Shown piece by piece: positions 1,654 to 15,050 of a DNA stretch of 20,521 nucleotides. Below the pieces are notes generated by a model. That model ran no database searches. It saw nothing but the letters and a program-made list of their open reading frames with translations, and was not told the origin of the DNA. A program made the position numbers and the translations under genes. Every line of letters begins with the position of its first letter. The first letter of the stretch is position 1. Source of the DNA: a virus; the IMG/VR virus record IMGVR_UViG_3300021962_000811, positions 1 to 20,521 of that record; one strand, given 5' to 3'.

Positions 1654-3630
1654 ATGAATATAATTACTACACAGGCACAACTATCTGAACTTGTTAAGGC
1701 GTATGAATCTGTTGATGCGTTTTGCTTTGACGTAGAAACGGTCGGAGATCACCGAGGAGATCCTCGTCAAAATATTGTTACTTGGATTGCATTAGCTACT
1801 TATGACCGCGTAGATGTAATACCTATGGGTCATCCAAACGGAGAATATCTACGTACCGAATACCCACTACTCCCTTCTGCAGTTGCTCGTGTAGCAAAGG
1901 GGCTAGAACTACGTGATTCTGACTACAGCAAAGACGAGCGTAAGGCCACTCGTATATTTGGCCCAGCACCTGAGCAGTTAACTGCGGGAGAAGTGTTTAA
2001 GGCTCTTAAGCCACTATTAACCAGCAACAAGGTAAAGGCTGGTCACAATCTTAAATTTGATCTACAAAGCGTATCTAAATACATCGGCGGTCTTCCAGCA
2101 CAGCCGTATGCATGCACCCTGAACGCCTCATTTATCTTAGATAACCAAAACCGTAACTCTTTAGGTTTAGATGACTGCTTACAGCGTGAGTTTGGCTATC
2201 ACATGGTGAAGGGTGTAGGAAAAGAAGTAGAGAAGCATAGCTTTGAAGAAGTTGCTACTTATGCGGGCCTAGATGCTGAATGGACCTGGAAGCTTTGGTT
2301 GAAGCTATCTAAGCAGTTAGACGCTGATGGTCTTCGAGGTATCTTTAATCTTGAAATGGATGTTCTAGATGTTATCTGCCGTATGGAGCTACGCGGAGCA
2401 GATATTGATGTCGATGAACTAGAGAAGTTAAAGGCAAACCTTGAAGTTCAACTTGAGACTACAAAGGCAACAATCTATAGGCTTGCAGGAAAAGCTTTTA
2501 ATATTAATAGTGTTCCTGAGAAACAAAAATTATTGTTCTCCCCTAAGAAAGATGGGGGTAGGGGTTTGAAGCCTAAGGTTTTAACCCCCGCAGGACAGAA
2601 GCGGGCTGATGAGGGTAAGCCAGCTTCTGTTTCTGACTTCTCTGTATCTGAACCTGCTCTACAAGGTTTGGCAGGTAAGGATCCACTAGTAGATGCTCTT
2701 ATTGAGTACTCTGATTTAAATAAGTTGTTGACTACCTATGTAATTCCATATCTAGGGGGAGACATAACTAGAACTCTTGCTGGTAAATCAAAAGTTACTG
2801 CAAAGAAAAGCTTGATGCTTAAGGGCCGTATTCATACTGACTTTGTTCAATATGGTGCGGAGACCGGCCGATTCTCGAGCCGTAATCCCAATTTGCAGAA
2901 TGTGCCGGCTCCGCACACACCTAATGGTAAGGCAATTCGTAATCTTTTTGTTGCTCCAGAAGGATATTCTTTGGTAGTTGCTGACTATTCTCAGATTGAA
3001 CCTCGTGTAATCGCTTCGTTTAGCCAAGACAGGATTATGTGTGGTGCTTACTTAAATGGCGAAGACATTTATACAACTATTGGAAATACCATGGGCGTTG
3101 ATCGTAAAGCTGGTAAAGTATTAGTTTTGTCCTTGGCTTACGGTGTTGGTCCAGATAAGATCTCAACATCTATCGGGTGTTCTTTAGCCGAGGCTAGGGA
3201 TTTATTAGATGACTTCGTATCTAAGTTCCCTTCTGTGGCTAGGTACAAGCGTCAGGTTATCAGTGAGAGCCGTAGGCAGGCTCCAATTCCTTTTGCCAGC
3301 ACTCTTTTAAAGCGTCGTCGTTATTTGCCTGATCTTCGTTCTAATGAGGTATGGAAGCGTTCAAGAGCTGAACGACAGGCTTTTAATACCGTAATCCAGG
3401 GGTCGGCAGCTGACATCATTAAGCTTGCTATGATTAGGGCTAATAAGATGATCCCTTCCGAGGCAAACCTTATCCTTACAGTGCATGATGAGTTAGTGAC
3501 GGTAACTCCTACTGAACTTGCTGAGGAAACTGCAGAGCAGATTAGGCAAGCAATGGAAGGCATTAACGCATTAACTGTTCCGTTACTTGCGGATATAACT
3601 ACTGTTAAACGATGGGGAGAAGCTAAGTGA
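1654..3630 (+). CDS. polA: Family A DNA polymerase with 3'-5' exonuclease
   Basis: This is a 658-residue replicative polymerase of the phage PolA type. The exonuclease domain (about 1-215) has Exo I with D26 and E28 (FDVET), Exo II with D136 (HNLKFD) and Exo III with Y203 and D207 (YAGLD), so proofreading looks intact. The polymerase domain (about 390-658) has motif A with D444 (ADYSQIEPR), motif B with R484, K488 and Y496, and motif C with H611, D612 and E613 (VHDE). There is no 5'-nuclease domain, as in T7-like enzymes. At the motif B position equal to E. coli F762 and T7 Y526 the residue is leucine (L492). Motif A has IEPR where E. coli has IELR. The next gene starts on a GTG overlapping this stop (GTGA). 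Confidence 0.97.
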   Translation: MNIITTQAQLSELVKAYESVDAFCFDVETVGDHRGDPRQNIVTWIALATYDRVDVIPMGHPNGEYLRTEYPLLPSAVARVAKGLELRDSDYSKDERKATRIFGPAPEQLTAGEVFKALKPLLTSNKVKAGHNLKFDLQSVSKYIGGLPAQPYACTLNASFILDNQNRNSLGLDDCLQREFGYHMVKGVGKEVEKHSFEEVATYAGLDAEWTWKLWLKLSKQLDADGLRGIFNLEMDVLDVICRMELRGADIDVDELEKLKANLEVQLETTKATIYRLAGKAFNINSVPEKQKLLFSPKKDGGRGLKPKVLTPAGQKRADEGKPASVSDFSVSEPALQGLAGKDPLVDALIEYSDLNKLLTTYVIPYLGGDITRTLAGKSKVTAKKSLMLKGRIHTDFVQYGAETGRFSSRNPNLQNVPAPHTPNGKAIRNLFVAPEGYSLVVADYSQIEPRVIASFSQDRIMCGAYLNGEDIYTTIGNTMGVDRKAGKVLVLSLAYGVGPDKISTSIGCSLAEARDLLDDFVSKFPSVARYKRQVISESRRQAPIPFASTLLKRRRYLPDLRSNEVWKRSRAERQAFNTVIQGSAADIIKLAMIRANKMIPSEANLILTVHDELVTVTPTELAEETAEQIRQAMEGINALTVPLLADITTVKRWGEAK

Positions 3631-4043: not shown

Positions 4044-4428
4044 TAGCAATTGGTGGGCAAAAAAATTAGGTACCCAATCACCTACACAAAATACTCCCCC
4101 AACTTCTCCTCCTTCTCCTAATGTGTACCGACCTCCTCAACAGAGCCCTAACATTCAGGTGTCTTATGATCAGCAACAAGATCAGTTAGTTACTCGTGCA
4201 CAGAGCGCGAGAGATGCTGAGCGTTGCCCAGGCTGTATGTCAGGAAACTACATGGCGCCAGTTGGCACTCAGCGCAAACGTTGTTATGATTGTGGGTATC
4301 CAATTGTCCAGTCAGGTACTGGAGCAGGCGGTACAGGTTCGTCTAGCAGTGGTCCAACGATTGCAGCTAAGCAGCCAAATCAAGGCGGAGGATTTAATCC
4401 AACAACAATCGTAGGGAGACTTGAGTAA
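4036..4428 (+). CDS. Zinc-ribbon protein with Pro/Gln-rich N-terminal tail
   Basis: This is a 130-residue protein overlapping the previous gene by 8 bases and ending one base inside the RecA start (TAATG). It has three parts. The start is a short aromatic-basic segment (NWWAKKLG) followed by a Pro/Ser/Gln-rich disordered stretch. The centre is a zinc ribbon with C64, C67 (CPGC) and C83, C86 (CYDC). The tail is Gly/Ser-rich and ends in TTIVGRLE. Such ribbons bind one zinc ion and often mediate nucleic-acid or protein contacts. Its lock-step position immediately before RecA suggests it works with the recombinase or replisome, but that is inference only. Confidence 0.75.
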   Translation: MSNSNWWAKKLGTQSPTQNTPPTSPPSPNVYRPPQQSPNIQVSYDQQQDQLVTRAQSARDAERCPGCMSGNYMAPVGTQRKRCYDCGYPIVQSGTGAGGTGSSSSGPTIAAKQPNQGGGFNPTTIVGRLE

Positions 4429-5489
4429 TGGTACTAAGCGCAGAAGCATTAAAAATTGCAGCAGGTATTAATAAGAAACTTGGAGCAAACACAGTTGTTC
4501 TTGCTGGAGAGGCACGACTATCTCAGCGCATTACGTCTGGTTCTCTAACGCTTGATGTTGTTCTTGGCGGAGGTTGGCCAATGAATCGTTGGGTAGAGCT
4601 AGTGGGCGAAGCATCGCATGGGAAGACAGCGATTGCTTTAAGAACTATTGCAGCTAACCAACAGATCAACCCTGACTTTACTGCCGTATGGATTGCGGCA
4701 GAAGACTTTGACTCAAAATATGCTGAGCTTTGCGGTGTAGATAACAGTCGTGTCTTACTTGTAGAAACTAACAGTATGGAGGACGCATTTGATTCGGTTA
4801 TTCAATTCATGGAAAGCAAGGCTGTTGATATGGTCGTTGTTGATTCACTTCCTGCCCTGGTTCCTAGTGCAGAGGATGAGAAGCACATGGAAGAATTCAC
4901 CGTTGGACGAGGAGCCCTCATCACCAACAAATTCTTCCGAAAAGTAGCCAGCGCTACTAAGCGAGACCTTATTGAGTCAGAGCGCCCAGTTCTTGGAATT
5001 ATGATCAATCAGTATCGTATGAAGATTGGTGTGATGCACGGAGATCCGCGTACCACCCCAGGTGGTCTGGGTAAGGACTATGCCTATAGTGTTCGTTGCG
5101 AAGTAAAGCGTGACGACTGGGTCGAGGTTGGTACCGGAGAAAGCAAGCGTCGTGTAGGTCAGACTATTCGAGTCAGAACTATTAAGAATAAGACTTTTCC
5201 CCCACAGCAGACTGCCTACCTAGACTTCTATTTTGCAGACGGTGGGGCTATTGATGCTGGCGGTTATGACACCGGAAAAGAGATTGTTGCCCTATCTATC
5301 CTAAATGGCATCGTAGAGCGCCGTGGAGGATGGATGTATTATGGTGACCGTAAGTGGCAGGGAGCTCAGGCTTTGATTGACTCCCTACGTGAGGAGATTG
5401 ATCTGCGAGAGGAGTTAAGTAAGGCCGTGCTAAGCACTATTAAGGCTCAGCCTATCTTGGCACTTCACGAGGACTCTAATGAAGAGTGA
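4428..5489 (+). CDS. recA: RecA-like recombinase
   Basis: This is a 353-residue ATPase of the RecA family. Visible signatures are Walker A at 60-67 (GEASHGKT), the RecA-type AAEDFDSKYAELCGVD segment with E92, Walker B ending at D139 (DMVVVDSLPALVP), and loop L2-like INQYRMKIGVMHGDPRTTPGG, which closely follows the bacterial RecA pattern. The C-terminal part (about 275-350) corresponds to the DGGAID...GIVERRGGWMYYG region of RecA. It would form filaments on single-stranded DNA and drive strand exchange for phage recombination-dependent replication or repair. It overlaps the next nuclease gene by 11 bases, fitting a recombination operon. Host-derived RecA is a less likely origin because the neighbours are all phage-type. 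Confidence 0.93.
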   Translation: MVLSAEALKIAAGINKKLGANTVVLAGEARLSQRITSGSLTLDVVLGGGWPMNRWVELVGEASHGKTAIALRTIAANQQINPDFTAVWIAAEDFDSKYAELCGVDNSRVLLVETNSMEDAFDSVIQFMESKAVDMVVVDSLPALVPSAEDEKHMEEFTVGRGALITNKFFRKVASATKRDLIESERPVLGIMINQYRMKIGVMHGDPRTTPGGLGKDYAYSVRCEVKRDDWVEVGTGESKRRVGQTIRVRTIKNKTFPPQQTAYLDFYFADGGAIDAGGYDTGKEIVALSILNGIVERRGGWMYYGDRKWQGAQALIDSLREEIDLREELSKAVLSTIKAQPILALHEDSNEE

Positions 5490-5796
5490 GGGACAAAAGC
5501 AATCTCTAAAGCATGAGAAAAGGTTAGCTAAGAAGATTGATGGCTCTAGGTCAGCAGCTTCTGGAGCTTTTTGGTCTCGTAAAGGAGATGTAAGGAACGA
5601 CGAACTTCTGATTGAGCACAAATGGACTGGCAAAAAGTCAGTAACCATTAAATCAGATGTTCTAAAGAAGATTACTACCGAGGCTATCCTAGATAGCCGT
5701 ATTCCGGTTTTAGGTCTTCATCTTGACGGAGAGAACTACGTAGTTTTAGTGGAGGAGGATTTCTTTGAACTTCGTAATTCAATCAAAGGTGGATAG
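5479..5796 (+). CDS. PD-(D/E)XK nuclease, Hjc-like Holliday junction resolvase type
   Basis: This is a 105-residue protein overlapping the end of recA. The active-site pattern is E13 in the first helix, D37 (KGDVRND), and E46 with K48 (LLIEHKWT), the order and spacing of small archaeal-type Holliday junction resolvases and related phage endonucleases. A serine-rich SRSAASGAFW segment precedes the aspartate, as in that family. The C-terminal part (IPVLGLHLDGENYVVLVEEDFFEL) supplies the remaining strands. It probably resolves branched DNA made by RecA. A second, unrelated-looking nuclease of the same fold lies at 8529. Function is assigned from motif and neighbours. Confidence 0.8.
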   Translation: MKSEGQKQSLKHEKRLAKKIDGSRSAASGAFWSRKGDVRNDELLIEHKWTGKKSVTIKSDVLKKITTEAILDSRIPVLGLHLDGENYVVLVEEDFFELRNSIKGG

Positions 5797-6126
5797 ATGG
5801 ATAACCCAGACGAGCCCAAGTGGGCTTGGAGATACGACGCCAAGTGTCGTGGGGAAGATACAGAAATATTTTTTCCTCCAAGAGACAAGGCTTTATACAA
5901 ACCAATAGCTGATAAGGCTAAAGCAATTTGTTGGGGACGAGACGGTCGACCGGCCTGTCCAGTTCGCAAAGAGTGCTTAAAAGAGGCTATTATAAACGAT
6001 GAGCTACACGGAATCTTTGGTGGTATGTCCCACAGAGAAAGAAATGCAGCTCAAAGAAAATATAAAAAACAAGGCTTAACATTAGACGAATGGATAGATC
6101 AGGATGGCAAGTACGGGCAAACCTAA
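5797..6126 (+). CDS. WhiB-like iron-sulfur transcription factor
   Basis: This is a 109-residue protein starting directly after the nuclease stop. WhiB-like hallmarks are a first cysteine (C17 in DAKCRG), an FFPPRD segment, three more cysteines (C45, C54, C60) in a helix running into LKEAI, and the glycine turn GIFGGMSHRER. WhiB proteins occur in Actinobacteria and their phages. They hold a 4Fe-4S cluster and act on promoters, usually through the main sigma factor. Here C45 and C54 are eight residues apart, while the common pattern is C-x2-C, so a loop of six extra residues (WGRDGRPA region) sits within the cluster motif. Phage copies can redirect host transcription or block septation; the role here is not visible. 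Confidence 0.9.
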   Translation: MDNPDEPKWAWRYDAKCRGEDTEIFFPPRDKALYKPIADKAKAICWGRDGRPACPVRKECLKEAIINDELHGIFGGMSHRERNAAQRKYKKQGLTLDEWIDQDGKYGQT

Positions 6127-6988
6127 GGGTGCACTAAAGGCATTTCTAGAAGCTAACAAACGAGATACTCGTTTGGTAGGCGCTATTGAGCGTCATTTAC
6201 TAGCAAAGCCTTTTGATTCTCGTAATATGGCTGTTCTACACCCTTCAGACATAATTAAACCTGAGTGGTGTCATTTAGCTTCCTATCACGCTTTATCGGG
6301 TAACTACAAAGAAGTTCGTGAGAAGCCAAACCTACGCCTTGCTTCTATTTTTGCTGAGGGACATTACATCCACGATAAGTGGCAGACCTGGCTTAAAGAA
6401 ATGGGAGTTCTATACGGTAAGTGGGAGTGCTCAGGTTGTGGCCCATCTGATTGGGAACTAGCCTCAGACTTAGATTTTACAGATAGCTGCGGAACTTTTG
6501 AGTACCGCGAAGTACCTCTACACAGCGCTAAGCATATGATCTCCGGACATTCAGATGGCTGGGTTAAAGGCTTGGGAGAAGATTTCCTAATTGAAATTAA
6601 ATCTATTGGGCCGGGAACCCTTAGATTTGAGGCTCCTGCACTTATCTCTCAGGCAGATGGGGATCTAGAGAAGGCTTGGAGGAATATTCGTGCACCGTTT
6701 AGGTCGCACCAACTTCAGGGCCAGGTCTACCTTCATCTAACCCATTTGATGGCTGAAGCTGGTGAGATCCCTTCAGCACCAAACGAGATTGTATTTATCT
6801 ATGAGCTTAAATCTACTCAAGATTATAAAGAATTTGTAGTTACCTACAACCCAGAATATACAAAAGATATCTTTGAGAGTGCTTTGGACGTTGCCTGGGC
6901 AGTTGACAACAAGCGCCCACCCATGTGTAATATTGACCCTATAAAGGGCTGCAAGCGTTGCGAGCCGTTTAGGGGGGAAGATGCCTAA
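6104..6988 (+). CDS. Cas4-like PD-(D/E)XK exonuclease with iron-sulfur cysteines
   Basis: This is a 294-residue protein whose start overlaps the WhiB gene by 23 bases. The nuclease core shows FAEGHYIHDKW (helix with H86 and H90), D151 (SGHSDGW), E164-x-K166 (LIEIKS) and a late HQLQGQVYLHL motif, typical of RecB/Cas4 exonucleases. C56 near the N-terminus and C275, C283 and C286 near the C-terminus match the four-cysteine pattern that holds the 4Fe-4S cluster in Cas4 and AddB-like nucleases. An extra CSGC pair (C109, C112) with C129 may form a separate metal site. It likely resects DNA ends to feed RecA. No CRISPR genes or arrays are present, so an adaptation role is not supported. Confidence 0.85.
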   Translation: MASTGKPKGALKAFLEANKRDTRLVGAIERHLLAKPFDSRNMAVLHPSDIIKPEWCHLASYHALSGNYKEVREKPNLRLASIFAEGHYIHDKWQTWLKEMGVLYGKWECSGCGPSDWELASDLDFTDSCGTFEYREVPLHSAKHMISGHSDGWVKGLGEDFLIEIKSIGPGTLRFEAPALISQADGDLEKAWRNIRAPFRSHQLQGQVYLHLTHLMAEAGEIPSAPNEIVFIYELKSTQDYKEFVVTYNPEYTKDIFESALDVAWAVDNKRPPMCNIDPIKGCKRCEPFRGEDA

Positions 6989-7288: not shown

Positions 7289-7465
7289 ATGCATTTAGAG
7301 CGTACTGAAAACGGTATTACCCTTGATGGGTTACCCGTATATGTAGCAGATGATGATTTTATTGAGCATCTGATGGAGATGGGTTATGACGAGTACATCG
7401 AAGAAGATGATCTTCAAGATGAGTGGAACGCTTGGTTAAAGGAGAACTTAGATGAGTCCAATTGA
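7289..7465 (+). CDS. Acidic 58-residue protein of unknown function
   Basis: ATG at 7289 follows a strong ribosome site (AAGGAGGGG). The protein is very acidic, with runs such as ADDDFIEHLMEMGYDEYIEEDD and EWNAWLKENLDE, and has no cysteine or membrane segment. It overlaps the next gene by 14 bases. Small acidic phage proteins of this kind are often DNA mimics or inhibitors of host enzymes, but nothing here shows a specific target. The strong ribosome site suggests it is made in quantity. Confidence 0.7.
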   Translation: MHLERTENGITLDGLPVYVADDDFIEHLMEMGYDEYIEEDDLQDEWNAWLKENLDESN

Positions 7466-7949
7466 GTTAAAGGTAGCAGAGGCAAGTAGTAGAACTATTG
7501 CCGCTCTAAATACGCAGGGTATGACGGTAAACGGCAAATACAGTTATGACGCCCCCTCACTACCAGCAGATATAACTGAGCTTATGGAAGAGCAGGTTAT
7601 GGATCTGTATACCAAGTATGTCGCTTATCTAGAATTTATTAACTTACAGTTGTGGTGCGCTGAAGTAGATAAGGCAGAAGCAGATAAGAACTTGTCATTT
7701 GTTCGTGCACAGAAGCGTCTAGCGTTAAAAAAGAACGGCACTGCGGTTTCTATGATTGACGCCGAAATTGAAGTAGATCCTGACTACCGCACTAAAGCCG
7801 ATGCTTTACATGAGCTTTCTAACTATCATGGATTAATTCATATTATCTCTGAGCGCTTGTCTAAAGATATCTCTCTCATTAACCGTGAGATTACTCGCCG
7901 TGTAAATATTAATAAGGCAACCGGTAGAAGCAGTTGGTTGACACCATGA
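7452..7949 (+). CDS. Helical phage protein of unknown function
   Basis: This is a 165-residue protein beginning inside the previous gene and ending in an ATGA overlap with the dNMP kinase. It looks almost wholly alpha-helical. A helical segment follows LPADITELMEEQ, then come alternating charged helices (AEVDKAEADKNLSFVRAQKRLALKK) and a C-terminal stretch LIHIISERLSKDISLINREITRR that could form a coiled coil. There is no enzymatic motif. Size, charge pattern and position among recombination genes would allow a recombinase-mediator or scaffold role, but I have no sequence motif for that and treat it as unknown. Confidence 0.75.
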   Translation: MSPIELKVAEASSRTIAALNTQGMTVNGKYSYDAPSLPADITELMEEQVMDLYTKYVAYLEFINLQLWCAEVDKAEADKNLSFVRAQKRLALKKNGTAVSMIDAEIEVDPDYRTKADALHELSNYHGLIHIISERLSKDISLINREITRRVNINKATGRSSWLTP

Positions 7950-8545
7950 CCTGGGAACAAATGTCTTTATTTACCGATGAGGAGTTAGGCATATCTCCTA
8001 GCTATAACGTTATTGGTCTTACCGGTTACGCACAGTCCGGGAAAGATACCCTCGCATCTATCCTGGTAGAGAAGTATGGCTATAAAAGAATTGCCTTTGC
8101 AGACGCCATAAGAAACTTTTTATATGAAATTAACCCCATGGTTAGTTGCAGTCCTACAGGTTATTTAAAAGATTTAATTAATCTTGTTGGTTGGGATGCT
8201 GCAAAGCAAGAGCCGCAAGTACGCAGGTTGCTTCAAGACCTGGGTGTTGCTGCACGTAACATTATTGATTCAGATATCTGGGTTGAGGTCGCATTAAAGA
8301 ACATCGATCCAGATGATCGAGTAGTTATCACTGATGTTAGGTTTGTAAATGAGGCTGAACATCTACGCTCACTTGGGGGACAACTTTGGCGCGTAAAGCG
8401 TCTTGGGGTTGAAGCAGTAAATTCTCATATATCAGAGCATGAGCTAGACGGCTACAAAGTTGATCAAATCTTTATTAATAACGGGACCATTGATGATCTA
8501 CGGCTACTAGTACAGACCAGGATGAGTAATGCCTTCGCAGAGTAG
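7946..8545 (+). CDS. Deoxynucleoside monophosphate kinase (P-loop)
   Basis: I choose ATG 7946 (199 residues) over an upstream TTG at 7934 because it forms a clean ATGA overlap with the preceding stop. The protein has a P-loop at about residues 27-35 (GYAQSGKDT), followed by the LASILVEKYGYKRIAFADAIR pattern typical of phage dNMP kinases such as T4 gene 1. Later segments fit too: LLQDLGVAARNIIDSDIWV, then VVITDVRFVNEAEHLRSLGG (lid and base-binding region) and the ISEHELDG segment. It would phosphorylate dNMPs to dNDPs using ATP, supplying the polymerase. It overlaps the next nuclease gene by 17 bases. Confidence 0.88.
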   Translation: MTWEQMSLFTDEELGISPSYNVIGLTGYAQSGKDTLASILVEKYGYKRIAFADAIRNFLYEINPMVSCSPTGYLKDLINLVGWDAAKQEPQVRRLLQDLGVAARNIIDSDIWVEVALKNIDPDDRVVITDVRFVNEAEHLRSLGGQLWRVKRLGVEAVNSHISEHELDGYKVDQIFINNGTIDDLRLLVQTRMSNAFAE

Positions 8546-8879
8546 AAAACATCGTGGGTATAAATCTCAAGATATTCTTGCAGAAAAACTTGTCCTAGAA
8601 GGTTGGCCTTACGCTAAATCAACTGGCGCAGGTAGATCCGGAACAGACGTTACCGGAACTATCGGCATTGATTGGGAAGTAAAGGCTAGAAAAGATTTCA
8701 ACCCTAGCGCTGCTATAAAGCAGCTAAAAGAGCGTAGTGATGGAGAAACTCTTCCAATCGCTGTACTGCGCCTTAATGGCCAGGGACCAGCAAGTGTCGG
8801 GGATTGGCCTGCTGTTTTACGGCTAGATGACTTAATTAGGCTATTAAAAGAGGCTGGATACCCTGACTTAACTCCATAA
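8529..8879 (+). CDS. Second PD-(D/E)XK resolvase-like nuclease
   Basis: This is a 116-residue protein starting inside the kinase gene. Motifs are E19 in the first helix (LAEKLVLEGWPYAKST), D40 (RSGTDVTG), E50 and K52 (DWEVKAR), then a basic-helix region (AAIKQLKERS) and a strand LPIAVLRLNG. This is the core of small Holliday-junction-resolvase-like nucleases. The spacing differs from the nuclease at 5479, and the two proteins do not look like close copies. One may resolve junctions and the other cut another branched or single-stranded substrate. It is the last gene of the tightly packed replication block, as a 60-base gap follows. Confidence 0.78.
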   Translation: MPSQSRKHRGYKSQDILAEKLVLEGWPYAKSTGAGRSGTDVTGTIGIDWEVKARKDFNPSAAIKQLKERSDGETLPIAVLRLNGQGPASVGDWPAVLRLDDLIRLLKEAGYPDLTP

Positions 8880-8939
8880 ATAACGTACCTTGTTCCTTGG
8901 GTGGGCGACTAATAATCGAATCCAAAGGACTACAAACTC

Positions 8940-9224
8940 GTGATTGAAAAAGATACAACAGAAGAGCAGTTTTTACGTGTAAGTGCAGGTTCTAATGCAC
9001 AATCCGTAGGCTCTGCTATTGCTCATGCTCTTTATGAGCGCCCTCAAGTTAAGCTTAGGGCTGTAGGAGCATCCGCAGTAAATCAGGCTGTAAAGGCAAT
9101 TGCTATCGCTAGAGGCTATGTTGCCCCTAGAGGTCTTGACCTAAGCTGCCGACCAGGCTTTACCACCGTGGATTCACGGGACGGACAAATTTCAGCGATA
9201 GTCTTTACTATCAATGTAAGTTGA
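8940..9224 (+). CDS. SpoVS-like (Alba-fold) protein
   Basis: This is a 94-residue protein with a GTG start after an AAAGGA site. From residue 10 to the end it follows the stage V sporulation protein S pattern closely: LRVSAGSNAQSVGSAIAHAL, then VKLRAVGASAVNQAVKAIAI, then ARGYVAPRGLDLSCRPGFTTV, and a final strand AIVFTINVS. SpoVS in endospore formers affects septation and spore-coat timing; its small alpha-beta fold resembles nucleic-acid-binding Alba proteins, and homologues exist in non-sporulating bacteria and some phages. A role in binding nucleic acid or altering host cell division is possible. It is monocistronic-looking, with gaps on both sides. Confidence 0.9.
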   Translation: MIEKDTTEEQFLRVSAGSNAQSVGSAIAHALYERPQVKLRAVGASAVNQAVKAIAIARGYVAPRGLDLSCRPGFTTVDSRDGQISAIVFTINVS

Positions 9225-9250
9225 TATATTCTTTATATTAAGAGATCTCT
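9204..9250 (+). promoter_or_regulatory. Possible promoter and small operator before the 9268 gene
   Basis: The AT-rich gap after the SpoVS-like gene holds TTTACT (9204-9209) and, 17 bases on, TATTCT (9227-9232), a weak match to sigma70-type boxes. A perfect 10-base palindrome, AGAGATCTCT, lies at 9241-9250, where a repressor could sit. The match is modest and I offer it only as a candidate. Confidence 0.25.
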
Positions 9251-9267
9251 AAACAGTTAGGAACCCC

Positions 9268-9636
9268 ATGGCAAAAAGCTCAATCCCAAGCCCTGACGAG
9301 GCGCTTGCAGGTATGGCAAAGCAAGGTCGCCAGCCTATGATGAAAGAAGGACTTGGTTTCACCTCTCCTTCAGCATCACCTAAGGCAGGAACACTTGTAT
9401 CAAAGAAGAACACCGCAGCTGGCGATCCATCTGGAGCAAAGGGTGCACCTCGTTCAAATGTACAGGCCGCATTACCTGCTCAAGATCGTAATGGAGCTGC
9501 ATACTCAATCAAGGCTAGTTATACAAAGATGACCGATCCAGCTGCTGGACAAACCCAAGCAAATGGTCGAATCATTAAGACCGCTGTAAAGCGTGACCGT
9601 ACCAACTTTGATTCAGGAGCAGGCGCTTCTTACTAA
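9268..9636 (+). CDS. Small basic Ala/Gly/Ser-rich protein of unknown function
   Basis: This is a 122-residue protein with ATG preceded by AGGA. Composition is dominated by Ala, Gly, Ser, Pro and Lys with few large hydrophobics, so much of it is probably disordered. Recurring short patterns include the SPSASPKAG and GAKGAPRS stretches; the end is KRDRTNFDSGAGASY. In style it resembles the small basic proteins at 16692-18446, although I see no direct repeat. There is no cysteine, signal peptide or membrane segment. A structural or DNA-packing role is conceivable. It stands alone between a promoter-like gap and the 9653 palindrome. Confidence 0.7.
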   Translation: MAKSSIPSPDEALAGMAKQGRQPMMKEGLGFTSPSASPKAGTLVSKKNTAAGDPSGAKGAPRSNVQAALPAQDRNGAAYSIKASYTKMTDPAAGQTQANGRIIKTAVKRDRTNFDSGAGASY

Positions 9637-9716: not shown

Positions 9717-9950
9717 GTGTCGCTACAAGATTTGTACGCAGAAGCAAAATCATTGGGAAGTATTAAGAATTGTATTGTGGGTCAGTGGGCCGCTACTCTT
9801 CCTGAAGAAGATAAAAAAGCATTTGAATTTGCTATGGAAGATGATGATTTAAGTACAAAAGATTTATTTTTATTGCTCCGTCGTGCCGGGGGCACGTTTG
9901 GCAAAACAGCTGTTCGTGACCACCGTAGAGGAGATTGTGTATGTCTTTAG
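9717..9950 (+). CDS. Small phage protein with HRRGDC tail, putative HTH DNA-binding
   Basis: This is a 77-residue protein with a GTG start following a strong AGAGGAGG site. It appears as a short helical bundle with acidic middle (LPEEDKKAFEFAMEDDDLSTKDLFLLLRRAGG) and ends with AVRDHRRGDCVCL. From memory, an arrangement of helices followed by 'HRxGxCxC' is common in small actinophage DNA-binding proteins, with the last helices acting like a helix-turn-helix (TKDLFLLLRRAGGTFGKTAVRDHRRG). It ends inside the ribosome site and start of the phosphoesterase gene, so the two are co-translated. The precise target is unknown. Confidence 0.7.
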   Translation: MSLQDLYAEAKSLGSIKNCIVGQWAATLPEEDKKAFEFAMEDDDLSTKDLFLLLRRAGGTFGKTAVRDHRRGDCVCL

Positions 9951-11119
9951 CAGATGATTATGATTCAATAATTCAAGCTGGTAATCAGGGTTCAGATAAA
10001 GCTAACAAAAATATTCCAGAAGCCTGGCGTCCTCGTTCTGAAATTGGAACTGATGGTGGCTTTATTGTTTCTACTCCTAGACCAGATGGTAATACTCCTG
10101 GCGCAGAAGAGATTCTTATAGAAGCAAAGCTTGATCCTGCTGAATGGACTGTGGTCTCTCACCGACGTTCTCGTTGGCAAACATTTAATGGTGATTGGTT
10201 AGAGTCATTTAGAGTTAATGTTGTACCCGCACAAAACTCTACTGCTCCTGATTATGATCTAGAGAAACTTCTTGAGGGAATTTCAAAGTGGAAACCTGGA
10301 AAGGTTTCAGAATTAACTGGGGACCTAACTGCTGTATATAGCGTTGGTGATACCCAGTATGGTAAGGATGACACCCCTGCAATTATTGATAGAGTTCTTC
10401 GTTCTTTTGATGAGGCTGTTGAGCATCATAAATATCTTGCTAAAAAATATAACATCGGGCAGATTGCTTTGCCTCAGCTTGGTGACTGCATTGAGGGTAT
10501 GACCAGCCAAAAAGGAAAGGTTATGGGACGTCATGATATAGGCGTTTCAGAACAGGTTCGAGTAGGTCGCCGTATGCTTCTTGCTCAAGTAAAGGCTATG
10601 TCCCCTCTAGCTGGAAAGATAATAGTTCCAGTAGTTCCAGGTAATCACGATGAGGTTCAACGTTTTCTAGTTGGTCGCCCAGAAGATTCTTGGCAGATTG
10701 ACGTTGTTGCTCAAGTAGAGGATATTTGTAAGGAAAACGAGTTCTTACATGATCGCGTAGAGTTTAGATATCCTGCATCAGATGACAGTACTCTTACAGT
10801 TAACCTAAGCGGGGTTATGTATGGTATGGCACATGGACATCAAGCTAGGGATATGGTTAAGTGGTGGAGTGGTCAGGTTATGGGCCGTTGTTCGGTAAAG
10901 GATGCGGACATTCTCAATGTCGGTCACTATCACCATTATCGATCACAGAATGTCGGACCACGCTTATTTATTCAGAATCCTTCTATGGACAATGGTTCAG
11001 CTTGGTTTAGAGATAAGTCAGGTTTAGATAGCGCACCAGGAATTATCTCTCTTGTTGTTGGTGCAGATGTAGATCCAAGACGTGAACTTGTAGTTCTTGG
11101 AGGACGAGAGTCTCGATAG
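9941..11119 (+). CDS. Calcineurin-like metallophosphoesterase
   Basis: I choose ATG 9941 (392 residues) over TTG 9935 because AGGAG lies 8-9 bases upstream of the ATG. The first 120 residues form a separate N-terminal region with WTVVSHRRSRWQTFNGDWLE, of a kind seen fused to phage phosphoesterases. The metallophosphoesterase motifs follow in order: GDTQ (D137), LGDCIEG (D182), GNHDE (N235, H236), HGH (298-300) and GHYHH (328-332). These bind two metal ions and hydrolyse phosphodiesters. Phage relatives sit near recombination genes and may act like SbcD/Mre11 nucleases, but no partner ATPase is in the window. A perfect terminator follows two bases after the stop. Confidence 0.88.
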   Translation: MSLADDYDSIIQAGNQGSDKANKNIPEAWRPRSEIGTDGGFIVSTPRPDGNTPGAEEILIEAKLDPAEWTVVSHRRSRWQTFNGDWLESFRVNVVPAQNSTAPDYDLEKLLEGISKWKPGKVSELTGDLTAVYSVGDTQYGKDDTPAIIDRVLRSFDEAVEHHKYLAKKYNIGQIALPQLGDCIEGMTSQKGKVMGRHDIGVSEQVRVGRRMLLAQVKAMSPLAGKIIVPVVPGNHDEVQRFLVGRPEDSWQIDVVAQVEDICKENEFLHDRVEFRYPASDDSTLTVNLSGVMYGMAHGHQARDMVKWWSGQVMGRCSVKDADILNVGHYHHYRSQNVGPRLFIQNPSMDNGSAWFRDKSGLDSAPGIISLVVGADVDPRRELVVLGGRESR

Positions 11120-12211: not shown

Positions 12212-12381
12212 TCCTCATCCTTAGGGTTACGAATTGGGTAGGTAACGGCCCAAGCAATCAATGTTCCAATAATTGCATAGCCAACGACAGTCTTTGCAGA
12301 TCCGTCTAGAACAACCCAGGCAATAAACATGCCTAACAATGTCCATAGCTGGTCAATCATGTCTTTAATGATCTTAATCAA
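12208..12381 (-). CDS. 57-residue two-helix membrane protein (putative holin/antiholin)
   Basis: TTG at 12381-12379 overlaps the stop of the large secreted protein (TTGA), with GGAG about 9 bases upstream; an internal ATG at 12360 would give 50 residues. The longer form begins MIKIIKDMIDQL. Helices follow at WTLLGMFIAWVVL and TVVGYAIIGTLIAWAVTY, separated by the turn DGSAK. The end is IRNPKDEE. The stop overlaps the next start (ATGA). A short two-helix protein placed just before a holin-like protein is a typical antiholin/holin arrangement, but either could hold either role. Confidence 0.7.
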   Translation of the reverse strand: MIKIIKDMIDQLWTLLGMFIAWVVLDGSAKTVVGYAIIGTLIAWAVTYPIRNPKDEE

Positions 12382-15050
12382 GGTCTACGTCTCCTAACGC
12401 CTTTGCTATCTCCAGAGGCACCACCGCCACCAGAACTTCCACCGCCTCCGCCTGTAGAACCACCTGTTGTGGTTGTAGTAGCAGAAGCTGCAATACCTAC
12501 TGCGTTAAGAGCGGCTTGACCCGCAATAACGGCAGCAACTACCATTTTTTGTGCTTCTTCACGTTCTTCGGGGGACATATCAGCACCAATACTTCCAAGT
12601 GCTTTCAGGGCTTGACCAGGGTCACTAAATAATTCGCCAATTAACTCCGCAGGGTTCTCTAGTAGCACGAGGGCTGCGGCAACGTCTGCTGTAATTATAA
12701 CCTCGTTACCGTTTTCATCCTTCCTAACCTCAACAGGAGTCTCTGGTGGAAGGTCCTTATACTCAAGGCCTGCCTCTTTAATAGCTTCAGCAGAGACTGG
12801 GCCTCCATTGGCTTCTGCAATCAAAGCTTCCGCCACAACCTCCTTTTCAGCCTCAGTTAATTTGCCATCTGCAAGGGCATCCGTTACAGCCTCTTCCACA
12901 GATGGTGTATCATCAGAGGATGATTCTTCTATCGGATTTTGTTGCTCTGGCTCTTGTGACTCTGGTTCTTGTTCTGGTTCCACAGGCAGTTCGGGTTCAA
13001 GGGGAACCTCGGGTTCTTCGATTGGTGTTTCGGGCTCTTCCGATTGTTGTGGGTCTTCTGTGGGTTCTGATGGCTCTTCTGTGGAAGGCTCAGTAGATGA
13101 AGTATCAGTTGAGTCATTTGTTGAATCAGCTTCGTCATCAGATGAAGGGTCAGTTGGAGTCTCAGGGTCAGTATCAGGAGTGGATGATTCCTCTTGAGAA
13201 GGCTCTTGTTCGGGCTCTTGAGGATTTGGAGAATCAGTAGATGGATCAGTTTGAGGAGTTGTGGAATCAGGAGTTGTTGAAGGCCCGTCAGATGGTGGAT
13301 TCGTGGATGGCTGAGGGTTCTGAGGACTTGTTGATTGAGAAGATTCTTGAGCAGGAGGAGTTGGATCGGGAGCAGGTGCAGGAGTCTGTTCGCCTTGCGA
13401 CCCAGACTGCTGTTGAGTCGCTTGCGAAGCTTCAGTTGCTGAAAGCGCAGATATTGTCGCAACAGTCTGAGAAACCACAGCAGTAGCGGTATCCGCTAAA
13501 GTATTTGCAGTAGCAACGGCGGTTGTTAGGTTTTCCTGAGCTGTTGTTAAGTTTGATTGCTCAGTTGTTAGGTTTGTTTGAGCCGTTGTTAGGTTTGTTT
13601 CTGCAGTTGTTTTTGCCTCTGTAAGAGTAGTAAGGGTTGCTACTGCCTCTTCTTTAACCTCTGTTTTATCAGTAACTACCGCTGTTTGGCTTTCAATTTG
13701 AGCCGCTAAAGTTTCGTTAGTTACATTTGTCATTGGTTTTACAGCAGTATTTGTTGCTTCACGAACACCAATACGAGGACCATTCCAAAGGTTAGTTGTG
13801 TTACCTGCAACTGTCGCTACTCCAGTCCATTCCCCAGAAGTAGGGTTTACGGTCATAGTCCAATTAACATTGGTAATAGGGCCATTTGCATCACCAAATC
13901 TGTGTAGATCCCAGTCCACAGCAAGTGTTGTTTCTGTAGTGGTTACTGTTATACCAGCACCTGTTCCGGCACTTTGGAAGTCAGATCCAAAGACTGAGAT
14001 GCTTGGGCCTTGGGGAAAGTCCCACCAGTTGAAGTCACCAGTACCGAAGGTAATAGTTGCCTTTGAGGTCACGTAGATCTGGCTAGCTGTTCCTTGACCT
14101 TCGTATACGGTGTTTCCCATTTTAATATCAAAAGGTGTTTGAATCTTTGTAGCAGCGTCCCACATGGCTGGAAGAGTTGTAGTTGTAACCGTTGGTGTTT
14201 CTGGAGCTACAGGGGCTACGTACCCCTCAGTTGTATATGTCTTGCTATCTGATGGCGTATTTTGAAGTTCTGTCAGAGTGTTTTGAGCATTTGTAAGGTT
14301 AGTTGTAGCCGTGGCAACAATGGCAGTTTGAGAGTCAACTGCGACTGTGGCTGTAGCAACGGTAGCTGTGGCTGACTCAACAATTGTTGTAGCGGTGGCA
14401 ACTACTGCTGTCTGAGATTCAACCGCTGTCTGAGCAGCTACTGCTGTTGCTGTAGCGGACTCTGCTGCTGAAATTGCGGTTTGTGCAGCCAAAATTGGTT
14501 CAGAAGCGGCAGAAATTACAGTTGCAGTAGAACTATCGATAGCTGTATTTAATGTTACAGTTGCAGTCGTAATTTTTTCCTGAACGGAGGCTACCGTTGG
14601 AGCTACTACTGCTGTTACCGTTTCTGATGGGGATTGTTGTTGGGTGGATACAGGGGCACTATCCTGAGAAGGAGAAGCTAGAACTGTATCGGAACTTGTG
14701 GATTGAGTCTGAAGAGAAGTTGAAGTGGTCTCAGGCGAAGGTGAAGACACAACAGTTGGACTTGGATCGCTGGGCTGCGAAGAATCAGGAGTGGGCGAAG
14801 GAGATGGTTCAGGGGAAGACACAGGAGTGGCCGAGGTCGAACTCGTACTGGAAGTTTGAGGGTCCGAAGTTACAGCAGAAGGTGCTGGACTTGGAGATGG
14901 AGCTGGATCAGTTGAGGTCGAAGACTGTGTGGAAACAGGACTAACAACCACCGTATCTACAGTGGTTTCGTCTGCTTTAGCTGAATTTTGTCCCAGAATT
15001 GATAGAAATAGTATGAGGATTAGTGCTGCGAATAGGCGCAGTGCAAGTAT
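12378..15050 (-). CDS. Large Ser/Thr/Pro-rich secreted protein with signal peptide
   Basis: The open frame runs 890 codons from an ATA at 15050; the first conventional start is a GTG at 14951 (857 residues). Upstream of the GTG the frame encodes a clear signal peptide: ILALRLFAALILILFLSIL, then GQNSAKA before DE, with an Ala-x-Ala cleavage site. AGGAG lies 6 bases before the ATA. Numbering from the GTG: a Ser/Thr/Pro linker (1-110), an Ala/Thr/Val helical repeat (115-235), a globular domain (260-400; MWDAATKIQTPFDIKMG, FNWWDFPQGPSISVFGSDFQ), NLTT heptad repeats (about 440-500), an acidic Pro/Glu/Ser linker (about 505-690), a helical region, and a Gly-rich tail ending RRRRP. It is probably displayed on or released from the host cell. 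Function unknown. Confidence 0.8.
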   Translation of the reverse strand: MLALRLFAALILILFLSILGQNSAKADETTVDTVVVSPVSTQSSTSTDPAPSPSPAPSAVTSDPQTSSTSSTSATPVSSPEPSPSPTPDSSQPSDPSPTVVSSPSPETTSTSLQTQSTSSDTVLASPSQDSAPVSTQQQSPSETVTAVVAPTVASVQEKITTATVTLNTAIDSSTATVISAASEPILAAQTAISAAESATATAVAAQTAVESQTAVVATATTIVESATATVATATVAVDSQTAIVATATTNLTNAQNTLTELQNTPSDSKTYTTEGYVAPVAPETPTVTTTTLPAMWDAATKIQTPFDIKMGNTVYEGQGTASQIYVTSKATITFGTGDFNWWDFPQGPSISVFGSDFQSAGTGAGITVTTTETTLAVDWDLHRFGDANGPITNVNWTMTVNPTSGEWTGVATVAGNTTNLWNGPRIGVREATNTAVKPMTNVTNETLAAQIESQTAVVTDKTEVKEEAVATLTTLTEAKTTAETNLTTAQTNLTTEQSNLTTAQENLTTAVATANTLADTATAVVSQTVATISALSATEASQATQQQSGSQGEQTPAPAPDPTPPAQESSQSTSPQNPQPSTNPPSDGPSTTPDSTTPQTDPSTDSPNPQEPEQEPSQEESSTPDTDPETPTDPSSDDEADSTNDSTDTSSTEPSTEEPSEPTEDPQQSEEPETPIEEPEVPLEPELPVEPEQEPESQEPEQQNPIEESSSDDTPSVEEAVTDALADGKLTEAEKEVVAEALIAEANGGPVSAEAIKEAGLEYKDLPPETPVEVRKDENGNEVIITADVAAALVLLENPAELIGELFSDPGQALKALGSIGADMSPEEREEAQKMVVAAVIAGQAALNAVGIAASATTTTTGGSTGGGGGSSGGGGASGDSKGVRRRRP
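13522..13605 (-). repeat. Four 21-base tandem repeats coding NLTT heptads
   Basis: Four imperfect 21-base units begin at 13522, 13543, 13564 and 13585, each opening GTTGTTA on the plus strand. On the coding strand they give four seven-residue units (NLTTAQT, NLTTEQS, NLTTAQE, NLTTAVA). The heptad length suits a coiled-coil stalk. Lower-order Ala/Thr/Val repeats of the same style occur further upstream in the protein. Confidence 0.85.

Follow-up and report, generated by a model that had tools for sequence, protein, structure and literature searches.

SpoVS is a core gene of the recombination module in a phage lineage, encoded behind a swappable junction-type nuclease and a conserved leader hairpin

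Background

The SpoVS proteins of cells, such as those of Bacillus subtilis and Thermus thermophilus (structures 2eh1 and 2ek0), are recognized by the PF04232 profile and share with the viral protein analyzed here an Alba-like fold and an N-Q-x-x-K core. Alba proteins possess a DNA-binding lysine pair. In the available part of one article, SpoVS is placed in the Alba superfamily and described as nucleic-acid-binding (PMC11621453). The literature that we found, much of it in the form of partial texts, contains no binding assay of any SpoVS and nowhere states the molecular job of the protein. Furthermore, none of the titles found in the literature on SpoVS in phages and viruses and on Holliday junctions (a survey of mostly titles, with subscription journals mostly outside) proposes a role of SpoVS in recombination.

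Viral spoVS is in print as an auxiliary metabolic gene (AMG), together with whiB in PMC6172770 and also in PMC8940887 and PMC9765229; as far as the available parts of these texts go, the 'sporulation AMGs' are the same genes, in viral contigs, that are found in the locus described below. Virome studies take phage spoVS as evidence of viruses manipulating sporulation. Judging from the same partial texts, spore formation is deduced from the name of the gene, in contrast to the present case, where spoVS is a core gene of a recombination module and the isolated relatives of the phage infect Streptomyces. Isolated phages of Nanopelagicales carry whiB, and SpoVS is not named in the available part of their description (PMC10202952); the word spoVS is also absent from the main text of a survey of sporulation genes in gut phages (PMC10294663). 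Among the closest known systems are the BRock-like Streptomyces phages (BRock, LuckySocke, Alone3, GiJojo and pSt2308), which encode a homologous DNA polymerase and a SpoVS with 54-57% identity to the one studied here. In LuckySocke, BRock and GiJojo, spoVS lies behind an annotated RuvC-like resolvase gene. These phages differ from our locus in that the nuclease upstream of spoVS has another fold and the hairpin signal in the spoVS leader is absent.

Identity and genomic context of the viral SpoVS

The window, by which we mean the whole stretch of DNA analyzed, is a viral contig from IMG/VR, 20,521 bases long. Its assignment to an actinophage, made in the initial annotation, is well supported because the nearest isolates by DNA polymerase are the BRock-like Streptomyces phages (37-39% identity); these relatives have genomes of about 112-116 kb, and the window is therefore a fragment. 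The spoVS gene comes after a block of replication and recombination genes; behind it are two small genes and then a phosphoesterase of the exonuclease type, with extra small frames between some of the genes. In order, the main features are:

1654..3630, + strand: family A DNA polymerase (PolA) with 3'-5' exonuclease (PF00476, E 2.6e-90)
4428..5489, + strand: RecA/UvsX-like recombinase (PF00154, E 7.2e-50; phrog_97)
5479..5796, + strand: second, PHROG-annotated 'Holliday junction resolvase' (phrog_2002, E 1.1e-20)
5797..6126, + strand: WhiB-like regulator (PF02467, E 1.4e-17)
6104..6988, + strand: Cas4-like/RecB-type exonuclease (phrog_2506, E 5.2e-31)
7452..7949, + strand: g13, conserved module protein without assigned function (HMM matches in loci L089, 2e-22, and L092, 2.5e-13; no PHROG match)
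7934..8545, + strand: deoxynucleoside monophosphate (dNMP) kinase (PF21448, E 4.5e-19; phrog_139, E 3.7e-49)
8529..8879, + strand: PD-(D/E)xK nuclease, Holliday-junction-resolvase-like (Hjc-like), directly 5' of spoVS (phrog_244, E 1.6e-8)
8880..8939, + strand: spoVS leader, of a conserved hairpin type
8940..9224, + strand: SpoVS, Alba-fold protein of 94 aa, GTG start (PF04232, 95.9 bits; AF2 model, pLDDT 89.2)
9268..9636, + strand: conserved downstream protein, found in 75 of 80 loci (the best 80 of at least 589 relatives; no PHROG match)
9935..11119, + strand: calcineurin-like phosphoesterase/exonuclease (phrog_284, E 3.1e-53)

This layout agrees with the initial description of spoVS as a gene isolated between gaps (60 nt upstream, 8880-8939, and 43 nt downstream, 9225-9267) next to a WhiB-bearing replication block, in which WhiB accompanies DNA polymerase A, RecA/UvsX, the Cas4-like exonuclease and the dNMP kinase. 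The downstream gap contains a perfect palindrome, AGAGATCTCT, at 9241-9250, which is present in all 18 complete gaps among the 20 downstream gaps compared. No tRNAs were found in a search of the window. Farther downstream, near a CHAP endolysin gene, the minus strand encodes an 857-aa protein (12378-14951) with an extremely high content of Ser, Thr, Pro and Glu and no PHROG match.

The SpoVS protein scores far over the curated cut-off of PF04232 (95.9 bits against 24, E 1.2e-27) and covers profile positions 2-82 of 83, which confirms that it matches SpoVS almost throughout. It also matches phrog_35646, 'sporulation protein' (E 7.2e-28), and its best match among solved structures is the T. thermophilus protein 2eh1 (E 1.5e-17, 46% identity). 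A six-frame search finds a single copy in the record. The GTG start codon is kept in 67 of the 68 loci that share the window's upstream nuclease type, the remaining one having TTG. The AF2 model, built on 40 aligned phage sequences, superimposes on 2eh1 with Z 16.3 and rmsd 1.2 Å over 85 residues. SpoVS structures (Z 16-17) are its first structural matches, followed by archaeal Alba/Sso10b chromatin proteins at Z about 10-11 and rmsd 2.0-2.5 Å (1udv, Z 11.2; 1h0x, Z 10.5; Foldseek E about 1e-4), which share the fold but only 10-20% identity over the aligned part. Among viral models, the top Foldseek match is an annotated SpoVS of an uncultured phage. The structural matches also include the RNA-binding Alba relatives 3wbm and Rpp20/25. 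Judging from the fold, the window SpoVS would bind nucleic acid, and its family suggests a dimer-type protein.

Conservation and phylogeny of SpoVS

A first viral scan matched at least 599 stretches, at least 589 of which encode a SpoVS relative, and the best 80 were kept. Several scans combined with annotated phage regions yielded 213 viral loci, reduced to 135 by exact dereplication; 112 of these have two or more module genes in common with the window and are hereinafter called the supergroup, and the other 23 do not. Among annotated phages, 14 records match SpoVS, six of which are entries of Streptomyces BRock-like phages (BRock was deposited twice).

Scanning with RecA from locus L102 as the query gave a SpoVS-blind sample of 80 loci. 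All 47 RecA-chosen contigs with at least 6 kb downstream encode SpoVS, as do six shorter ones, the remaining 27 loci being short and without it; in each of the 53 contigs with SpoVS, a RuvC-like gene is located within 1.5 kb upstream. In addition, SpoVS is a single-copy gene in all 27 near-complete relatives (82-113 kb, picked from SpoVS loci). Because an identity table of SpoVS-chosen loci is biased towards SpoVS, identities were taken from the RecA-chosen set, where the conservation of SpoVS matches that of RecA (median identity between pairs of 78.8% for SpoVS, 78.1% for RecA, 62.6% for RuvC and 61.9% for WhiB) and SpoVS is under strong purifying selection (dN/dS of 0.139). SpoVS is a core gene of the recombination module of this phage lineage and not sporadic cargo; a sporadic AMG or moron is ruled out by its presence in 47 of 47 RecA-chosen contigs with room for it. 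Outside the supergroup, spoVS is found beside genes for Sak4, an SSB-like protein and a primase in L169 and before an SSB gene in L170; no recognized replication neighbor was found in LysYB1 and KLEB27-3.

For the phylogeny, we used a careful tree of 102 rows and 94 columns. The number of columns is small and the bootstrap is not fully settled; the cellular rows are the nearest matches only, mostly from Bacillota. A single clade with support 100/100 unites the 52 supergroup rows with three rows of the Bacteroides-phage type. The branch leading to this clade measures 1.8 changes per column, and cellular SpoVS is separate from it: none of the 34 cellular-context rows and none of the 13 other phage rows fall inside. 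Viral SpoVS thus appears in this tree as a deep, virus-only clade of true SpoVS, and it does not group with structural or unrelated Alba proteins. A recent transfer from a cell is ruled out in that no sampled cellular SpoVS lies inside the phage clade. Among the best 80 matches listed, the nearest cellular SpoVS are mostly from Bacillota, with at most 57% identity.

The Cas4-like gene and g13 are also found upstream of spoVS in a Bacteroides phage (L089) and in a gut record of similar layout (L092), and the SpoVS of the Bacteroides phages with these two genes belongs to the same clade; the module therefore seems to extend across phages from two phyla. In L089, spoVS is followed by a QueC-like gene, and a similar protein is encoded behind it in L092, so that the recombination module may have genes for 7-deazaguanine modification of DNA next to it in these two. 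Several deposited records deserve a comment. L090 (MT836246.1) and L091 (MT835471.1), both deposited as 'Bacteriophage sp.', have a YmdB-like gene before spoVS and, by eye, housekeeping-type genes around it, and look like pieces of bacterial chromosomes. The SpoVS of L086 (MW302330.1, Stenotrophomonas phage TS-12) shows 81-89% identity to the 10 best contigs of one viral scan, which are also its partners in the tree; by eye, the neighbors of this gene are Bacillus-like, and the Stenotrophomonas host label may therefore be wrong.

In cells, spoVS sits behind YmdB (directly upstream in 54 of the 77 loci with room, among L173-L252), unlike phage spoVS, which follows a nuclease gene of the resolvase type and has a leader that hides the Shine-Dalgarno sequence. 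Of these 80 cellular loci, 54 have a RecA signature on the strand that encodes spoVS, the latter often lying a few kb downstream of recA, and a RecA-SpoVS neighborhood therefore exists in cells, too. In the available part of a co-evolution study, spoVS shares a polC-linked list with recA, recG and recU (PMC3814617).

The nuclease slot upstream of spoVS

By profile search, all 112 dereplicated supergroup loci encode a resolvase-type nuclease within 1.5 kb upstream of spoVS on the same strand. Three unrelated folds of the Holliday-junction-resolvase type occupy this position, namely PD-(D/E)xK (78 loci, 68 of them window-like and 10 of a second subtype), RuvC-like (17; phrog_159, E 5.9e-33) and endonuclease VII (17; PF02945, E 3.3e-27, and T4-type endonuclease VII in the PDB, E 2.4e-5). 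The distance from the nuclease stop codon to the SpoVS domain is at most 264 nt in 108 loci and longer in L115, L283, L286 and L294, and only one further match to a slot nuclease was detected elsewhere in 1.10 Mb (L095). In the window nuclease, the PD-(D/E)xK residues D40, E50 and K52 are invariant in 22 sequences; of the five PDB entries matched by its profile search at E<=10, four belong to Hjc or ST1444, with marginal E values of 0.028-0.74, and its AF2 model is unusable (pLDDT 48). On the tree of the Cas4-like protein (93 rows), the fold in the slot switches at least 6 times, or 8 times when the PD-(D/E)xK subtypes are counted.

The slot nuclease is not equivalent to 'the' resolvase of these phages. 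The phrog_2002 'Holliday junction resolvase' is present in all 27 near-complete relatives, and given this invariance the swappable nuclease may serve a different purpose. Endonuclease VII (PF02945) is encoded in 12 of the 27 genomes, in 6 at the slot and in 6 away from spoVS, and phrog_159 in 10, always at the slot; the 23 SpoVS loci that, after dereplication, do not belong to the supergroup contain none of the slot nucleases. For these reasons, we refer to a swappable junction-type nuclease slot.

It is conceivable, although we doubt it, that spoVS is an ordinary gene of the replication region and that the nucleases were swapped by homologous exchange in the adjoining genes without any functional tie to it. 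The genes flanking the slot are conserved on both sides and close relatives differ in its content (L101/L107 versus L103/L104), and the slot and gene order could be inherited synteny, not partnership. What this explanation does not predict is that the replacements are junction-type nucleases in 112 of 112 cases and that a related spoVS leader is kept across two nuclease types.

The spoVS leader

The gap 8880-8939 can fold into a hairpin, CCUUGGGU...AUCCAAAGGA (about 8895-8928), with the Shine-Dalgarno sequence AAGGA (8925-8929) in the 3' arm. Taken alone, the window leader folds only mildly better than shuffled sequences (z -0.58, not significant). RNAalifold on MAFFT alignments gave no structure for the RuvC group and a weak 6-pair structure for the PD-(D/E)xK group because the stems vary in length, and the model structure was therefore named by hand from one sequence (L306). 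From 22 leaders of the RuvC type we built a covariance model, whose search over 62 sources, the window included, produced 49 matches at E<=1, all of which end between -15 and +3 of a spoVS start codon; these include loci of the PD-(D/E)xK type (E 0.0004 to 0.27). The window leader itself has no match at E<=1, and its near-identical relative L002 is detected at E 0.042. Changes on both sides of a pair were counted in 41 cells, versus 22.3 +/- 3.2 in shuffled controls (0/500 reaching this value) and no more than 26 when the structure was slid, in an alignment fitted to the structure of the model, which favors that structure.

The Shine-Dalgarno sequence is predicted to be paired with a probability of 0.79, versus 0.45 in shuffled sequences, in the window's PD-(D/E)xK-type group, and is above shuffles in 19 of 19 leaders there, in 34 of 38 leaders of the RuvC freshwater type ('freshwater' and 'soil' being working group labels) and in 7 of the 8 from the endonuclease VII group taken together with its PD-(D/E)xK neighbors. 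In the BRock-like phages, the signal is absent (0.53 versus 0.60 shuffled; 4 above shuffles among the 7 scored, of 9 leaders), and terminator-like hairpins and TATAAT-like sites are seen by eye. In the window, no known RNA family was detected, and no sigma-70 promoter was found before spoVS in 8500-8940. Thus, a conserved hairpin that hides the Shine-Dalgarno sequence, with compensatory changes and specificity for one gene, exists across the relatives, the copy in the window being below the threshold of the model. SpoVS is probably controlled at translation by itself, and we infer autoregulation.

The leader model was also run on 23 genomes, with matches at E<=1 in 21 of them, the best match being mostly the spoVS leader; G006 and G007 have a better weak match elsewhere, and G010 has a weak match elsewhere only. 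Weak extra matches occur in several genomes; an RNA regulon was rejected as an explanation of those examined, in G006, G007 and G034, which look like chance matches to ribosome-binding sites. There is no convincing second copy of the leader in the searched genomes and therefore no visible RNA regulon. This result weighs against the idea that SpoVS is mainly an RNA-binding protein that acts on the translation or decay of its targets, namely the leader as well as further transcripts of phage or host, and that its adjacency to the nuclease is simply inherited. The conserved leader directly upstream, the RNA binders among the Alba relatives and the YmdB gene that so often precedes cellular spoVS all fit such a regulator, which we nonetheless regard as unlikely given that, besides the single leader, replication genes adjoin spoVS in unrelated phages as well.

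Predicted function of viral SpoVS

Being core in the recombination kit, encoded behind a junction-cutting enzyme and equipped with its own leader, SpoVS is probably a DNA- or RNA-binding helper of replication. The explanation toward which we lean, with some reserve, is that viral SpoVS is a small Alba-fold, nucleic-acid-binding protein that belongs to the core set for recombination-dependent replication and acts with the nuclease and under leader-controlled translation. Under this model, SpoVS most likely would coat or bend replicating or branched phage DNA (or RNA) and would assist or protect the substrates of the junction-cleaving nuclease encoded just upstream; we infer a cooperation of the two proteins. 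The amount of SpoVS would be set at translation, with the leader hairpin hiding the ribosome-binding site, and in the simplest version, free SpoVS would bind the hairpin of its own leader and shut off its own translation.

A more far-reaching proposal, which we make tentatively and hold to be the less probable one, is that viral SpoVS is a dedicated recombination cofactor, the counterpart in bacterial viruses of an Alba chromatin protein, that works with whatever junction nuclease its phage encodes and represses its translation through the hairpin, sporulation being a late side role in Bacillota.

The initial annotation had suggested that SpoVS and WhiB are paired modulators of host development or division, and the corresponding scenario, in which they block or redirect host cell division or differentiation during infection, draws on the effect of spoVS genes on sporulation in Bacillus (PMC8510167, in its available part), on the PHROGs category of SpoVS ('moron, auxiliary metabolic gene and host takeover'), on the soil and marine virome papers that, in their available parts, name spoVS and whiB as sporulation AMGs, and on the shared block, but seems improbable given that SpoVS belongs, as a single copy, to the core of the recombination module and to a deep phage-only clade with no recent pick-up from any sampled cell, that its constant neighbor is a junction-type nuclease and not a developmental gene, that WhiB is encoded 2.8 kb upstream and separated from spoVS by the genes for the Cas4-like exonuclease, g13, the kinase and the nuclease, and that the one actinobacterial control genome, Corynebacterium glutamicum, shows WhiB and no SpoVS. 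Probably, SpoVS is not an effector of sporulation or septation in these phages, the known hosts of whose isolated relatives are Streptomyces.

If viral SpoVS indeed serves recombination-dependent replication, a common 'sporulation AMG' marker would be an ordinary phage recombination gene, and the ecological inferences drawn from it would need correction. Should the dedicated-cofactor proposal be true, the older job of the SpoVS family would be DNA recombination. Phages of Streptomyces lividans would provide a genetic system for the molecular job of SpoVS, and the leader is a candidate self-regulating RNA.
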